A DNA stretch of 64,000 nucleotides from Tetragenococcus koreensis. GTDB lineage: Bacteria; Bacillota; Bacilli; Lactobacillales; Enterococcaceae. Numbering within the stretch: the first letter of the stretch is position 1; every line of letters starts with the position of its first letter. This document shows, piece after piece, positions 21,038 through 28,892 of this stretch. The notes under the pieces are model-generated. The model was not told the origin of the DNA. It was given only the letters and a program-made list of their open reading frames with translations, and did not search any database. The stretch is taken from NCBI RefSeq assembly GCF_003795145.1, contig NZ_CP027786.1, forward strand, positions 1,922,001-1,986,000, written 5' to 3'. Position numbers and translations under genes: made by a program.

Positions 21038-22852
21038 ATGACAACGAATCAACAAATAAAAAACAAATTAGCCTTACTGCCTGATCAACCTGGTTGTTAT
21101 ATTATGAAAGATAAAACAGGTACGATCATTTATATCGGCAAAGCAAAAATTTTAAAAAATCGTGTACGTTCTTATTTTACTGGTGGTCATGATACAAAAA
21201 CTGAACACTTAGTTAGTGAAATTGCAGATTTTGAATACATCGTTACTGAATCAAACATTGAAGCATTATTACTGGAAAATAATTTAATCAAAGAAAATCT
21301 GCCAAGATATAATATTATGCTGAAAGACGATAAAACTTATCCTTTCATCAAAATTACGAATGAAAAATATCCACGCTTGTTGATTACCCGTAAAGTGTTA
21401 AAAGATGGAGCAGAGTATTTTGGTCCTTATCCAGATATTGGTGCTGCCAATGAAACAAAGAAAATTCTGGATCGTATTTTTCCTTTGCGTAAATGCGGAC
21501 CTCATCAAAAAACGCCTTGTTTGTATTATCATTTAGGTCAATGTTTATGTCCGTACGCTTTTAATGTGGACCCTGCTGTCTATACGAAGATTGTTAAAGA
21601 AATCAAACACTTTTTTAATGGCGGCTATAAAGATGTCCAACAAAGTTTGAAAGAACAAATGGATGACGCTGCTGAAAATATGGAATTTGAAAAAGCAGCA
21701 GAGTTGCGCGATCAAATCAATTCTATTGAAACAATTATGACACGACAAAAAATGACTTCTACCGATTTGAAAGATAAAGATGTCTTTGGCTACACAGTGG
21801 ATAAAGGTTGGATGTGCGTCCAAGCATTCTTTATTCGTCAAGGTAGGATGATTAAACGTGATGTATCGATCTTTCCATTTTATAAAGAAGAAGCCGATGA
21901 CTTTTTGACTTATGTTGGTCAATTTTATCAACAAAATGAACATTTTATTCCAAAAGAAGTATTAATTCCAAACGATATTGACAAGACTGCTGTAGAAGCA
22001 TTATTAGATACAAAGGTGATTCAACCACAACGTGGACAAAAGAAAAAACTAGTAGAGCTCGCTAATAAAAATGCTCGTGTAGGTTTAAAAGAGAAATTTG
22101 ATTTGATCGAACGAGCGCAAGAACGGACGGTAGGAGCTGTCGAAAAACTAGGGCAAGCATTAAATATTCCTACCCCTGTTCGTATTGAAGCTTTCGATAA
22201 CTCGAACACAATGGGGACAAACCCTGTTTCTGCGATGGTGTCCTTTGTTGATGGCAAACCATCTAAAAAAGATTATCGCAAGTACAAAATCAAAACAGTA
22301 GATGGGTCAGACGATTATGCATCTATGCGTGAAGTAATCTATCGTCGTTATTCACGTTTGCTAAAAGAAGAAAGCACACTCCCTGACTTAATTTTAATCG
22401 ATGGTGGTAAAGGACAGGTAGACGTAGCAAAAGATGTATTAGAAAACCAACTAGGTGTTGATATCCCTATTGCAGGACTAGCCAAAGATGATAAACATAA
22501 GACAAGTGAATTATTATTTGGCGAAGATTTACATTCGGTAATGCTAGAACGTAGTTCCACAGAATTTTTCTTATTGCAACGCATTCAAGATGAAGTGCAT
22601 CGTTTCGCGATTACTTTCCATCGTCAATTACGCAGTAAGAACAGTTTTTCTTCTAAGTTAGATGGCATTGCTGGACTTGGCCCTAAGCGAAAAAAGAATT
22701 TGCTGAAAAAATTCAAATCATTAAAAGGCATTCAACAAGCAACTATTGAAGAAATAAAAGAAGCGGGTGTTCCTAAAAATGTAGCGGAAAACGTTATGGA
22801 AGAATTAGCGCCTGCAAAAAAAGATAAAGAAAACTCCACTGCGAAGGAGTGA
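21038..22852 (+). CDS. uvrC: Excinuclease ABC subunit C
   Basis: The nuclease subunit of nucleotide excision repair, which cuts on both sides of a lesion marked by UvrA/UvrB. In order: GIY-YIG domain ([20 protein letters not shown], then RSYF), UVR motif ([20 protein letters not shown]) that binds UvrB, the C-terminal RNase H-like part ([42 protein letters not shown]) and a tandem HhH region ([19 protein letters not shown]). The ATG at 21038 gives 604 residues and fits where homologues begin; an ATG at 21020 is possible and a frame from 20975 would run through the leader hairpin. SD is weak (AAGG at 2 nt). Confidence 0.95.
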
Positions 22853-22934
22853 TGGAGTCTAGTTATTGAGAGAGTAATAATTTTGACTCATTTCTCCCAT
22901 TGATGTTGTTATAATATAGAAAGCTAACAGAATG

Positions 22935-23089
22935 AAGAAGCTGTGACATAAGTTTTTTTGATAATAAAATATCCGAACTATAGAGAGATTACTCCTGCGA
23001 TTACTCGTCGTAAATTCACGACAATTGGCAATTTCATCAACTATAGTTCGGGTATTTTTGTCTGGTTTTTACTTATGTCACAGCTTCTT
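22935..23089. repeat. MITE-like palindromic element
   Basis: A 155-bp element with perfect 19-bp terminal inverted repeats: AAGAAGCTGTGACATAAGT (22935-22953) and its complement (23071-23089). A second, inner pair of 15-bp arms (22969-22983 and 23041-23055, one mismatch) surrounds a centre holding a smaller TCGTCG-type dyad. It carries no gene. It lies between the ends of uvrC and the original crtM stop. It looks like a small non-autonomous element or a large conserved RNA hairpin; no clear target duplication was found. Confidence 0.75.
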
Positions 23090-23109
23090 TCTTTATTTAT
23101 TATCTTCAA

Positions 23110-23225
23110 TCAAGCTTCAGCAGCAATTCTAGCGATTTCAGGTAACAAAGTAAGTTTTCTTTGTCGGCTGACCTTTTGCCTGGTAGTTAAAACAGCATAA
23201 TTTTTCTTTCGAATCACTGTTAATA
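23110..23225 (-). pseudogene. crtM: 3' fragment of crtM, cut off by IS insertion
   Basis: Read on the minus strand from the IS edge, the frame gives (LL)TVIRKKNYAVLTTRQK and continues to LLPEIARIAAEA and a TGA at 23110-23112. Joined to residue 250 of the main crtM frame on the other side of the element this restores a protein of about 285 residues, the usual CrtM length. The 5-bp TAATA at 23221-23225 is the target duplication. No start codon or SD is available, so this part is not translated as a CrtM fragment. Confidence 0.9.
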
Positions 23226-24775
23226 ACTCAAGTTTCGCACATGTAAAATGATATTAAACAACGGTCTTATCAACTCTTAGGTCGAAAAAAGTCCTGATAT
23301 TGACTGCCTACCTTTTTATACAAAAAGAACTCCTTTTGTTTTATAATTGATTTAACCACAAACCAAAAACAAAGGAGTTCTTGCCTTTATGGTACACTTA
23401 AAAGCTATTAAAAATCAATTACCGAATGAAATAAAAGCCCTTTTTTCTGAATTAAAAGTCACGCAATTTTTAAAACAAGCCCATATGGAAAAGCAAAAAG
23501 GGTATTCGGTGGCTATTCTATTCACTTTTCTCTTTAGCCTCGTCTTTAAAGGAAAATCCTTAAACCAAGTTCTCAGTGGGCGGGAAAGCGACCAATACAT
23601 GAAAAAAGATACCGTGTATCGATGGATGAACAATCCCCATAACAACTGGCGTCTGTTTTTACTTCGGTTTAGTGCGTCTGTCATCGAAAAGCTCCATTCT
23701 TTAACGGATACGAAAACCCATATTCGGACGTTGATCTTGGATGATTCGACGTTTTATCGTAATCGAAGCCAAGAGGTACCAGGCTTAGCTCGTCTTTGGG
23801 ATCATGCGCTCAAACAAGGATACAAAGGGTATCGTATGCTTACTTTAGGATTCTCCGATGGCTATTCTTTCATTCCGATTGATTTCGGGTTACTATCCGG
23901 TAAGAAAAAAGTGAACCAAACAATAGCAGAAAAAGATCAACGAACCGTAGGAGCCAAACGATTCAACGAACCGTAGGAGCCAAACGATTCAACGAATCAA
24001 GTCGTAAAATGCCCGAAGTGGCACTTGAGATGGTTCAACGCGCCTTGAACCAAGGGATTTACGCCACCCATGTGTTGATGGATAAATGGTTTACTTCCCC
24101 TAAAATGATAGACCAATTACACGATATGGGGATTCACACCATTGGGATGGTGAAAAATGGAAAAACCAAATACCTTTTTCATCAACGTTTATACAAGCTG
24201 GAAGAACTTTATGCCAAATCTACGAAAGAATATACACAAGAAGCGATTATTTCCTCGATTGTGGTGAAACCAAGCTCCGGCAAAAATCCCGTGAAAATCG
24301 TTTTTGTCAAAAATCACAATAAGAAAAGTGCTTGGTTGGCGATTATGACCGATGATCTGGATTTATCTTCCCAAGAAATGGTCAAAACATACTCGGCGAG
24401 ATGGGACATCGAGACATTTTTTAAGGCATCGAAATCATTGCTTCATCTGACTAAAGAAACACAAACGCGACATTATCAAGCCTTAATTTGTCACACCACC
24501 ATTGTGTTCACACGGTATATTTTATTAAGCTGGCAGCAGCGCTGTGCCAATGATGAGCGGACCTTAGGTGGCTTATTTTATGAACTGGGCGATCAAATAA
24601 AAGAACTCGATTGGTCCGCTGCTCTTATCGAATTAGTACATATTATTCAAGCGGTAAGCGAAGAATCAGGAAGCCAATTACAAGATTTTATTACAAGTCA
24701 ACTCCAACACTGGGTGGATACTCTGCCCCGTTATATCAAGGCTTATCTCCCAGATTTGGTGTGCGAAACTTGAGT
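23226..24775 (+). mobile_element. IS4-type insertion sequence within crtM
   Basis: A 1550-bp element with 16-bp perfect terminal inverted repeats: ACTCAAGTTTCGCACA at 23226-23241 and its complement at 24760-24775. It is flanked by a 5-bp direct repeat TAATA (23221-23225 and 24776-24780). One transposase gene fills it, broken by a 26-bp tandem duplication. It inserted in crtM about 105 bp before its original stop. Without the duplication the element would be 1524 bp. Confidence 0.93.
23389..24773 (+). pseudogene. IS4-family transposase, frameshifted by 26-bp duplication
   Basis: A DDE transposase now in two frames: 23389-23976 (195 residues) and 24009-24773 (254 residues). The segment CAACGAACCGTAGGAGCC...ATT occurs twice head to tail, at 23938-23963 and 23964-23989. 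Removing one copy leaves 1359 bp, an unbroken 452-residue protein reading DQRTVGAKRFNESSRKMPE across the join. Visible motifs are LILDDSTFYRN (first Asp), VLMDKWFTSPKMID, and WDIETFFKASKSLLHLTKET near the catalytic Glu region. The element is probably unable to move on its own. Confidence 0.92.
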
Positions 24776-25522
24776 TAATAACTCGCGATAGAAGAAACTA
24801 GCAGCCACAACCGCCTTGCGTGCCTCTTGATCAATCAAGGGGAGCATGGTTAACCCGTTTTGATAAGACTTTTCAGCAATGTGAGCTTCAAATTCCCATG
24901 CAGCAATAAATTCATCTGTTACCTTTTTTTGCTGCAGCATACGCTTAGATACGCCAAATTTAGTTAGAACTTCTTGTGGCAAATAAATTCGATTGTTATC
25001 AAAGTCTTCTCCTATGTCACGCAAAATATTCGTTAATTGCATCGCTTCGCCCATCTTTTTGGCTTGTGCTGTAATTTTCCGCCAATTTTTAGAAAGTATC
25101 GGCAACAACATCAACCCAACTGAGCCTGCTACATAATAACAGTAATCAATCAGTTCAGCTTGTGTTTCAGGCTGAGTAAACGTCTCATCTTGCTTTTGCC
25201 CTTCCAGCATGTCGAAAAATGGCTGTATAGGCATATCGTAATTTTGAAATACCACTGACAGTGCGCGCCACATCGCTTGATTGGGTATATGTCCTGTTGC
25301 AAACGCCTGGAGTTCTTGTTCTAATTTAAGCAGGCCTGTAATATCGTGATGTTTATCAATTAAATCGTCTGCCTTGCGACAAAACGCATAAACCGCAAAA
25401 ATGCTCCATGCTTTTTCTTTTGGTAATTGTGAAAAAGCCGCATAAAAGCTTTTTGAATGCTGTTGAATTATCTTTTTGCACGTAAGAAAATCTTCTTTAT
25501 ACCGTTCAAACTCATTGGTCAT
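24743..25522 (-). CDS. crtM: 4,4'-diapophytoene synthase, truncated by IS
   Basis: A squalene/phytoene synthase-type enzyme that joins two farnesyl diphosphates into the C30 carotenoid precursor. Both Asp-rich sites are present: AFCRKADDLIDKHHD (about 46-60) and NILRDIGEDFDNNRIYLP. The reading frame gives 259 residues, but the last nine (QVSHTKSGR) are encoded by the right end of the IS element; native sequence stops at FFYRELLT. The missing 35 residues lie at 23110-23225. Loss of the last helices probably weakens or abolishes activity. It overlaps crtN by 11 bp. Confidence 0.92.
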   Translation of the reverse strand: MTNEFERYKEDFLTCKKIIQQHSKSFYAAFSQLPKEKAWSIFAVYAFCRKADDLIDKHHDITGLLKLEQELQAFATGHIPNQAMWRALSVVFQNYDMPIQPFFDMLEGQKQDETFTQPETQAELIDYCYYVAGSVGLMLLPILSKNWRKITAQAKKMGEAMQLTNILRDIGEDFDNNRIYLPQEVLTKFGVSKRMLQQKKVTDEFIAAWEFEAHIAEKSYQNGLTMLPLIDQEARKAVVAASFFYRELLTQVSHTKSGR

Positions 25523-26999
25523 CTTTTAGCAACTCCTCCACTGCTAGTTTGGCACTTTGCATAACGATTGGCACGCCCGCTCCTGGATAAGTACTACTCC
25601 CGCAAAAATATAAATGATCTGCATAGGCAAATTTGTTATGCGGCCGATAATAATTACTTTGCTTGAGCGTCGGTTTCAAACCGAATGTTGCTCCGTTATA
25701 GGCGTTAAAATCCGTTTGGAAATCTTTAGGCGTATACTGTTTTTCAAAGACAATATGCTCATCAATATCTTTAAATATTGTTTCTTCTTTTAGTTTATTA
25801 AGCACTTGTGTCCGGTACTTTTCAATCGTAGCTGAACTCCAGTCTGAAAACTTAGATAGCTCAGGAACAGGAACTAGGATATAGACTGCTTCATTTTCGG
25901 ATGGAGCCAAAGATTCATCCATCAATGTCGGAACATAAATATAAAAAGAGGGGTCATCTGGAAGAGTACCTTCTTCAAATAATTGATCAACATTACGTTT
26001 GAAATCTTTAGCAAAATAAATCGAATGCAAAGCCTGCACATCATATTTTTTATCTACCCCTAGATACATCAAAAAACAAGAACACGAATATTCCATTTTT
26101 TTAATTTTCTTATCAGTATATTTTCCTCGGTCATTTTCATTAGGAATAAGTGCTGTCATTGCGTAAGGAAAATCTGCGCCACAGATAATAGCATCGCCAA
26201 AAACTGTTTCCTTTCCGATTTGAAGCCCAATCGCTTGCTTGTTTTCAATTAAAATTTCATCCACAATTGTATTACAATACAGTTTACCGCCAAGCTCTTT
26301 AAACAATCGCTCTAAAGCTTGCGCAAGAGTATACATCCCTCCTTTAATAAAATAAACACCATAAAATAATTCAATCATAGGTATCATTGTATATAATGAA
26401 GGGCCCTGATATGGTGAAACACCAATATAAAGGGTCTGGAAAGCTAACGATTTACGTAACCGTTCATCTTTTACAAATTTTACAATTGAACTATATGCAT
26501 CGTTAAATGTTCTCAGTTTTAATCCAGCCATCAATGAACTGGGATTATAAAAATCCCAAAATGAACGAAATGAGCGTGTAATAAAAGCATCTTTAGCTAT
26601 CAGATAACGCTTATAAATATCAGACAAAAAGCCTAAATATCCTTGGGCGTCTTCTTCAGAAATTGATTCTAAGGTATGCATCAACTGAGTTAAATCCGAA
26701 GAAAATGACAGTGGCGGTTCTTCAAAAAAATATAAATGAAGCATGGGATCTACTTTTTCCATTGGTAAATAGTCTGCTGGATTTCGCTGACAGAAAGAAA
26801 AAATCTCCTCGTAAATATCTTTCATCATAACAATCGTTGGACCAACATCAAAGCAGAACCCTTCTTCCTTGATTTGATTCATTTTTCCGCCAACTTGGTT
26901 ATTTTTTTCGTAAAGTGTCACATCATAACCTAAATACTGTAAACGCACAGCAGCGGTCAAACCAGCAACACCAGCTCCTACAATCAATACTTTCTTCAT
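25512..26999 (-). CDS. crtN: 4,4'-diapophytoene desaturase
   Basis: A 495-residue FAD-dependent desaturase that introduces double bases of conjugation into diapophytoene to give yellow diaponeurosporene-type pigments. It begins with the dinucleotide fold KKVLIVGAGVAGLTAAVRL and has KMNQIKEEGFCFDVGPTIVMM and the C-terminal LYFCGSSTYPGAGVPIVMQSA, all typical of CrtN/CrtI enzymes. The ATG at 26999 is preferred; a GTG two codons upstream is possible, and a GGGGGAG SD serves either. The gene is intact, but its partner crtM is cut by an IS, so pigment is doubtful. A TATAAT near 27087-27092 may be its -10 box. Confidence 0.94.
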   Translation of the reverse strand: MKKVLIVGAGVAGLTAAVRLQYLGYDVTLYEKNNQVGGKMNQIKEEGFCFDVGPTIVMMKDIYEEIFSFCQRNPADYLPMEKVDPMLHLYFFEEPPLSFSSDLTQLMHTLESISEEDAQGYLGFLSDIYKRYLIAKDAFITRSFRSFWDFYNPSSLMAGLKLRTFNDAYSSIVKFVKDERLRKSLAFQTLYIGVSPYQGPSLYTMIPMIELFYGVYFIKGGMYTLAQALERLFKELGGKLYCNTIVDEILIENKQAIGLQIGKETVFGDAIICGADFPYAMTALIPNENDRGKYTDKKIKKMEYSCSCFLMYLGVDKKYDVQALHSIYFAKDFKRNVDQLFEEGTLPDDPSFYIYVPTLMDESLAPSENEAVYILVPVPELSKFSDWSSATIEKYRTQVLNKLKEETIFKDIDEHIVFEKQYTPKDFQTDFNAYNGATFGLKPTLKQSNYYRPHNKFAYADHLYFCGSSTYPGAGVPIVMQSAKLAVEELLKDDQ

Positions 27000-27005
27000 A
27001 CACAC

Positions 27006-27335
27006 TCACTCCCCCATCACAATTATTCAAAAAATCCACTTAAACAACAAGAACAGCTTCTTTAACATTTTGTTTTTAAAATCACAAGATTATTATAACA
27101 GGAGTGATTGAAATTTTACCAACAATTACCCTTCACAAAATGATAGCTTAAATTTCTCTTTTTACTATTGAAAAAAATAGAGCAGCATTCTTTAATCACG
27201 CCAGCCGTGATAAAAATGCTAACTCTATAGGTGAGGTTATTGAAGCAGTTCTTATTAAAACAATTAAATTTAGTTACATGCACTTTCTTATGAGAATCAT
27301 TGTCTATCAATTCTTTGATTAGGATTAGGGTAGGG
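27006..27335. other. Gene-free gap between crtN and msrA
   Basis: A 330-bp AT-rich stretch. It holds a candidate crtN -10 box (TATAAT, minus strand) without a convincing -35, and a short ATCACG/CGTGAT dyad near 27195-27215. I see no convincing gene; a 64-codon minus-strand frame has no family resemblance. Confidence 0.5.
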
Positions 27336-28169
27336 TTAAGTTTTTCCTTTCTTCCATCTCATTCGAATTTCACCTTTTAGATATTGATAAAGCAAAAAAC
27401 GTTGACGGTAACGCTTAATTCTTTTATATCTTTTATAGTGCTTTTTATAGAACTGTTGATAGTGGTTTTCTGCCGGCCAAAAAGTGCTTGCGGGTTGAAT
27501 TTCAGTTACGATCGGTTGTTTATATCTGCCAGAATCAATCACTTTTTGTTTTGATTCTTCGGCGATTTGTCTTTGTTGTTCATTTCTCACAAAAATAATT
27601 GGTCTATATTGATAACCTCTGTCTTGAAATTGACCTAACCCATCTGTTGGATCGATGAGTTGCCAGTATAAATCAACTAATTCTTTATAGCTAATCATCT
27701 GCGTATCAAAAATAATTTCAACCGCTTCGACATGGCCTGTAAAACCGCCAAGTACTTGGTCATAACTTGGATGTGGTGTATGTCCGCCCGTATATCCTGA
27801 CAAAACAGAATCAATGCCCGACTTAGTTTCAAAAGGTTCTACCATACACCAAAAACAACCGCCACCAAATATCGCATAATCTTGATAGTTAAAATCTTCA
27901 ATACTATGTTTCGAAAAATCAAAACGTGCTTCTTCAACTGACTCCCCTGTAATTTTTAAATAAAAATCAGCAACATCCCCCGTTAAGTTATCTCTAAGGG
28001 CAAGTGGACGAAATTTTTCTTCCAATTTAGCAAGCTGAGCGTTGACGTTGGCGCCTGCTTCCAAAGCATCCTTTGTTGAAGTTAACACAGACCGTTCCCA
28101 ATCACGTGTTCCCTTATTGATGATAAGATTATAAAGTTCTCTTAGCACCTCTTCTCTTGTCCGTTCCAT
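27336..28169 (-). CDS. msrA: Peptide methionine sulfoxide reductase A with extra N-terminal domain
   Basis: Reduces methionine-S-sulfoxide in proteins with thioredoxin as donor. The MsrA core starts near residue 97, with the catalytic motif [13 protein letters not shown] (Cys105), then [15 protein letters not shown] and GHVEAVEI. Ahead of it lies a helical extension of about 95 residues ([20 protein letters not shown]) with no family I can name, and at the end a basic tail rich in Lys and Arg. At 277 residues it is about 100 longer than common MsrA. GGAGGGG precedes the ATG. It appears monocistronic. Confidence 0.9.
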
Positions 28170-28364
28170 TTTTATCCCCTCCTGGAGATATAGCCAAAAC
28201 CAGAAAATAATTATGCTCTATTTTATACATCAAATGTTTTATGATACGCCGCTAAGTTTAGAAATGAATAGCAATCTTTTTCTTTATTATAAACGCTAAG
28301 TTTGTATACTACTAATATTCGAATTTTATTCTAGCTAAAACGTGACCTTTAACATAGCTATACA

Positions 28365-28892
28365 TTATGGAAGTATAGTGTCAATAATTTCAATGTTTTC
28401 ATCACTTTTTAAGGCGCCGTCTATCACTAAGTCTACATCTTGTATAATAAATCTTTCATAGTCTATAAAAATAGGACGCCCGAAACTCAAATAATGCCTA
28501 GCCATCTTTTGTATATTATCAGTAGTTTCACCTTTAAAATCTCGTATCAATCTCCGAGCAAAGCAAATATCTAGTGGTGTTTTAACGTAAATAACCTTAT
28601 CAACCATTTCTTGGATTGCTTTATGTTTATAACCAAAGGGAAAATCAACAAATAGGTAAGAATACCGACCATAAGCTGCTTTAAGATCTATTAATAACGC
28701 ACTAACATCATATTGATTGACTGCAATTTCAATAGGCGTAGAAATAGCGGGCGCCGAGGGCAAAGCATCAATATCGTAATCATCAAACGATAAGCATTTA
28801 CTATTTGGATATCGTTTGATCAGCCCCTTAACGATAGTGGTTTTACCACTACCGCCCATACCACTTACTACAATTACTTTACTGTCTTTCAT
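28365..28892 (-). CDS. P-loop kinase-like NTPase
   Basis: A 175-residue nucleoside/shikimate-kinase-like protein. Walker A is VSGMGGSGKTTIVKGL (residues 9-24), then SFDDYDIDALP at the place of an acidic substrate/metal site, LFVDFPFGYKHK as a Walker B-like strand, and ARRLIRDFKGETTDN as a probable lid with two arginines. It resembles the AAA_18/uridine-kinase-like group of unspecified small-molecule kinases. The substrate is not known. It is separated from msrA and rlmH by about 195 and 55 bp and may be alone. Confidence 0.75.
   Translation of the reverse strand: MKDSKVIVVSGMGGSGKTTIVKGLIKRYPNSKCLSFDDYDIDALPSAPAISTPIEIAVNQYDVSALLIDLKAAYGRYSYLFVDFPFGYKHKAIQEMVDKVIYVKTPLDICFARRLIRDFKGETTDNIQKMARHYLSFGRPIFIDYERFIIQDVDLVIDGALKSDENIEIIDTILP

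Follow-up and report, generated by a model that had tools for sequence, protein, structure and literature searches.

The gene pair crtM and crtN is known from Enterococcus mundtii, where it underlies a yellow C30 pigment (PMC4076982); the excerpted text of that report makes no mention of a disruption of the pair. Insertions of IS elements into a carotenoid gene have been described in Deinococcus geothermalis, where they struck the phytoene desaturase gene and pigment was lost (PMC10892881), and in Tetragenococcus halophilus the IS4-family elements ISTeha3, ISTeha4 and ISTeha5 are reported to have inserted into the arc operon (Wakinaka and Watanabe 2019, cited in PMC8249745). Here we analyzed a 64,000-nucleotide stretch of the Tetragenococcus koreensis genome (hereafter the window) in which the crtM of the same gene pair is split near its end by an IS4-family element. 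As in the T. halophilus arc operon, an IS4-family element disrupts a metabolic operon of this genus, although both the operon and the element differ. As in D. geothermalis, an IS element sits in a carotenoid gene, but there the setting was laboratory irradiation or peroxide, the IS1 and IS5 families are among the elements named in the excerpted text, and the gene encodes a desaturase rather than a synthase (PMC10892881). No report of an IS element in crtM was found among titles, abstract openings and selected passages of the open-licence literature, and the disruption adds one more case to a well-known type of event, namely ordinary gene decay.

The sequence shows an IS4-family element at codon 250 of crtM, and we consider it very probable that this is the insertion of a recently multiplied element, with the enzyme probably inactive and the strain probably lacking C30 carotenoid. 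In this scheme, the crtNM pair would have been acquired horizontally before its breakage; the multiplied element inserted at codon 250 and duplicated 7 bp of its target, and the resulting dehydrosqualene synthase lost its last 35 residues, leaving an enzyme that is probably dead and probably no 4,4'-diaponeurosporene-type C30 carotenoid. A strain that carries the crtNM operon may accordingly be colourless, with the broken crtM as the explanation, and the locus warns that gene presence alone is an unsafe basis for predicting pigment. It also offers one clear case of recent IS-driven gene loss in a Tetragenococcus genome, affecting a gene that appears to have been horizontally acquired before it was lost.

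The crtM open frame runs on the minus strand from 25522 to 24743 and encodes 259 amino acids, 250 of them native and nine contributed by the element. Its 5' piece (24781..25522, minus strand) comprises 247 codons and one base more, which is the first of the duplicated target; together with the target copy and two element bases, this piece codes for residues 1-250. The truncated protein passes the cut-off of the squalene-phytoene synthase family (PF00494, SQS_PSY; 219.9 bits against a cut-off of 26, E 6.4e-65), with the C-terminal segment of the family left incomplete where the frame departs after residue 250; by homology, crtM is a disrupted member of this family. The tail of the truncated frame, QVSHTKSGR and a stop (24743..24774, minus strand), is read directly in the element, in agreement with the first-pass annotation, which had assigned nine terminal residues to the IS end. 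Past the element the minus strand stays in the crtM frame, reading LLTVIRKKNYAVLTTRQKVSRQRKLTLLPEIARIAAEA up to a stop codon at 23112-23110. This stranded 3' piece (23110..23226, minus strand), beginning LLT, holds 35 codons with no counterpart in truncated CrtM (residues 251-285), and its LL and the first base of its T codon fall within the duplicated target. The claim that the lost end of crtM is still readable is borne out both by this in-frame reading to the stop at 23110 and by its matches to CrtM of relatives (below). Similarly, removal of 23226-24780 had been predicted to restore a protein of about 285 residues, and the base count (742 + 116 bases) yields exactly 285 codons and a stop; that cut produces the same empty site as ours, since the element plus one target copy also amounts to 1555 bp.

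The element itself spans 1548 bp (23227..24774, plus strand), is bounded by perfect 15-bp ends, CTCAAGTTTCGCACA, and is flanked by two copies of the target-site duplication TTAATAA, the left at 23220..23226 and the right at 24775..24781. It belongs to the IS4 family by its IS4-type DDE transposase match, its terminal inverted repeats and its target duplication. The transposase of this copy is split into 195 and 254 amino acids by a 26-bp tandem duplication (23938..23989, plus strand) that shifts the frame and is unique to the crtM copy among 22 compared. On the plus strand, the 5' half (23389..23976) matches NF049925 IS4_4 over positions 2-187 with 203.8 bits, which alone is under the cut-off of 250, and the 3' half (24009..24773) matches positions 193-447 with 308.5 bits, above it; the 3' half is also 34% identical to one annotated ISTeha4. 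Apart from the 26-bp duplication, the crtM copy differs from the consensus of the copies by one substitution. Megablast and blastn searches of the element against plasmids returned no match. By contrast with the element, the genome's 11-kb second contig has plasmid relatives: its first 8 kb are 99.5% identical, over 70%, to a Tetragenococcus osmophilus plasmid, with another T. osmophilus plasmid and a T. halophilus one ranking next and T. muriaticus lower, although this query has 4591 matching plasmid records, mostly from other genera, and plasmids are mobile.

Its own genome contains at least 25 matches to the element (with 40 of 58 candidates scored), of which 24 (L010-L033) were checked for their ends, with the 212-bp fragment L034 excluded. 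Both ends could be read in 22 copies, the exceptions being L028 and L030, and exact direct repeats flank every one of these 22, measuring 7 bp in 15 copies, 6 bp in five and 8 bp in two. Since the repeats mostly start with T (20 of 22) and always end with A (22 of 22), a shorter duplication is a tempting reading, and the first-pass annotation had indeed proposed one of 5 bp (TAATA); TAATA is merely part of the 7-bp TTAATAA. A 5-bp duplication is ruled out by L018 and L019, which show A where T would be needed at the element's right end, and is also contradicted by the five copies with a 6-bp repeat. Seventeen of the 22 copies differ from the consensus by two substitutions or fewer, which points to a recent burst, while one copy carries 25 substitutions, one 155 and three about 381.

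With at least 17 near-identical copies in the genome and an odd 26-bp duplication in the crtM copy, an assembly error could be imagined to have joined a copy of the element to crtM. We regard this as extremely unlikely, given that a perfect 7-bp duplication like those around other copies flanks the element, and that both pieces of crtM meet at the element in a genome assembled into only two contigs.

By a simple count of open codons on each flank, ten of the 22 copies, the crtM copy included, appear to interrupt an open frame; an interrupted frame was defined as at least 25 open codons on each side and at least 150 in total, a limit chosen after the list had been viewed. These ten comprise seven of the 17 near-identical copies and three diverged ones (L027, L031 and L033). 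The pieces flanking the nine other insertions (L012, L018, L021, L023, L024, L025, L027, L031 and L033) were searched separately, all nine on the upstream side and eight of nine on the downstream side, where the 28-residue piece of L023 was omitted. In three of the frames the two pieces agree in family: one encodes a 2-hydroxycarboxylate transporter, another an isocitrate/isopropylmalate dehydrogenase and the third a PTS IIA protein. In three others the domains on the two sides are compatible, pointing to a UvrD-type helicase, to a Na/Pi cotransporter with PhoU and to a sigma-54-type activator with PRD, and L023, L025 and L031 have one-sided matches only. From these matches, the element appears to have broken other genes too.

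The 452-amino-acid transposase is kept in 17 of the 22 copies, 12 of them among the 17 near-identical ones, and is absent in intact form from the crtM copy. Precise excision of IS elements is usually rare. The intact transposases could in principle act in trans to remove the element exactly, and with both target copies perfect, crtM would then behave as a reversible switch in a population of pigmented and colourless cells. We consider such a switch very improbable: besides the usual rarity of precise excision, the transposase of the crtM copy itself is broken, and the insertions look scattered, with 10 of 22 copies lying in unrelated open frames. Insertion of a recently multiplied element into crtM remains the reading that we favor.

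We compared crtM across related genomes. A CrtM match is present in 35 of the 105 family genomes searched, this one counted. In each of the 34 others the best open frame reaches 288 codons or more, 288 being the shortest, so the short end seen here is not natural to the protein and a naturally short CrtM is ruled out. None of these relatives ends at the IS edge, an outcome that the first-pass annotation had named as one that would speak against its reading. Thirty CrtM proteins drawn from the 34 genomes were aligned (no locus was returned for G009, G105, G111 and G118), with the 5' piece searched together with its nine-residue tail and the 3' piece searched separately. The 5' piece aligned to all 30, with identities of 48-60% and alignments that extend to query residue 249-256. 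The 3' piece alone matched 28 of the 30, with L083 and L102 giving no match, and its alignments begin at residue 248-257 in 24 of the 28; in the other four, which are longer proteins, they begin at 264-266. The top bit score of this piece was 36.2, as against a maximum of 24.6 among 1000 shuffles. Alignment beyond residue 250, the other point on which the earlier reading had been staked, thus holds in 28 of 30 relatives. From the first Met, the relatives' CrtM proteins measure 286-307 residues, and the 285 of the rejoined protein fall just below the shortest of these.

The best solved-structure match to truncated CrtM is PDB 5iys, titled phytoene synthase and from Enterococcus hirae; this structure and those of S. 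aureus CrtM (PDB 2zco among others), titled dehydrosqualene synthase, are homologous to the truncated protein. Compared with truncated CrtM, 5iys and S. aureus CrtM have about 30 more residues at the C-terminus. Among the missing residues 251-285 are R253 and Y257, neither of which varies in any of the 29 distinct relatives compared. Position 263, also missing, is occupied by K or R in all 29, with the caveat that some of these rows are closely related and so not independent; the stranded 3' piece retains R, Y and R at the three positions. A modelling study lists R45, R171 and R265 of S. aureus CrtM as diphosphate-binding (PMC13304436), and in an alignment of L097 (identical to the 5iys chain) with S. 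aureus CrtM, R265 lies inside the missing segment, where gap placement blurs its exact pairing with position 263. Since two invariant residues, one Arg and one Tyr, are lost together with the stretch that holds R265 in S. aureus, truncated CrtM is probably inactive.

Some residual activity is conceivable, given that the truncated protein keeps both of its aspartate motifs as well as the tyrosine that corresponds to Tyr248 of S. aureus CrtM, a ligand contact in docking work (PMC10635275). With these features retained, the main part of the fold in place and SQS_PSY matched through profile position 247 of 263, truncated CrtM might be active enough to yield some pigment. This is nevertheless unlikely in our view, as the protein has lost two invariant residues, an always-basic position and the segment with the reported diphosphate-binding arginine, and as none of the 34 other family genomes has the short form alone. 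A whole-genome search returned one SQS_PSY match and no second protein of the family. On the preferred reading of an inactive CrtM, the strain probably makes no 4,4'-diaponeurosporene-type C30 carotenoid.

The partner gene crtN (25512..27005, minus strand; TIGR02734 crtI_fam, E 5.4e-128) encodes 497 amino acids and overlaps crtM from upstream. It is full length and open, as had been claimed, and the two genes form a crtN-crtM operon in which crtM comes second and last. Because crtN lies upstream of crtM in the same orientation, a polar effect of the insertion on crtN is not expected. The genome has one CrtN match. Over residues 2/3-496, the protein shares 70-72% identity with the top match from each of five relatives.

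The crtNM pair sits between uvrC and msrA. The CrtM proteins of five relatives within the genus are only about 54% identical to this one. For UvrC, identity reaches 90-93% in seven relatives, with G006 lower at 79-80%. In a tree of 31 CrtM rows, this CrtM pairs with a single member from another genus, G120 (support 95/91), and a single CrtM clade for the genus is rejected (p-AU 0.0004); both paired sequences are on long branches, so the exact placement is unsure. Comparison of relatives at the same locus had been proposed as a check, and we carried it out in three relatives of the genus where the interval between uvrC and msrA is readable. All three lack crtNM at this site, having instead a gene-free stretch of about 110 bp in G005, an insert of two genes in G001 and one of three genes in G007, and hence the comparison revealed no uninterrupted crtM. 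Elsewhere, only uvrC was found in the G006 stretch among 12 window proteins tried, and crtN and uvrC are on separate contigs in G002, G003 and G004. An SQS_PSY match is lacking in two of seven good-quality relatives, G006 and G007, and also in G008 (88% complete). Taken together, the low identity of CrtM and CrtN relative to UvrC, the CrtM tree and the other contents of the uvrC-msrA interval suggest, from comparison of sequences, that crtNM probably entered this genome by horizontal transfer and was broken later.

With its contents differing between the genomes read, the uvrC-msrA interval (22853-27335 in the window) resembles a small gene-exchange site. Separately, G005 has a second crtN-crtM pair (L073 6730-7460), whose crtM carries a frameshift near residue 58 that splits it, as well as an unbroken pair elsewhere; some 0.4 kb further along there is a related IS (75%). 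In the window, uvrC and crtM converge, and the space between their ends holds a long hairpin repeat (22928-23098), with a predicted fold of -62.7 kcal/mol (z -11.2; none of 200 shuffles equally stable). A search of 22000-28500 at the Rfam gathering score found no match, the hairpin repeat included. The repeat has at least 46 matches in its own genome (with 40 of 54 candidates scored, and some matches being the two strands of one palindrome) and is matched in eight of nine genomes of the genus, with 48 matches in G007, 38 in G004 and 28 in G005; it is possibly a MITE-like or terminator-like family of the genus.
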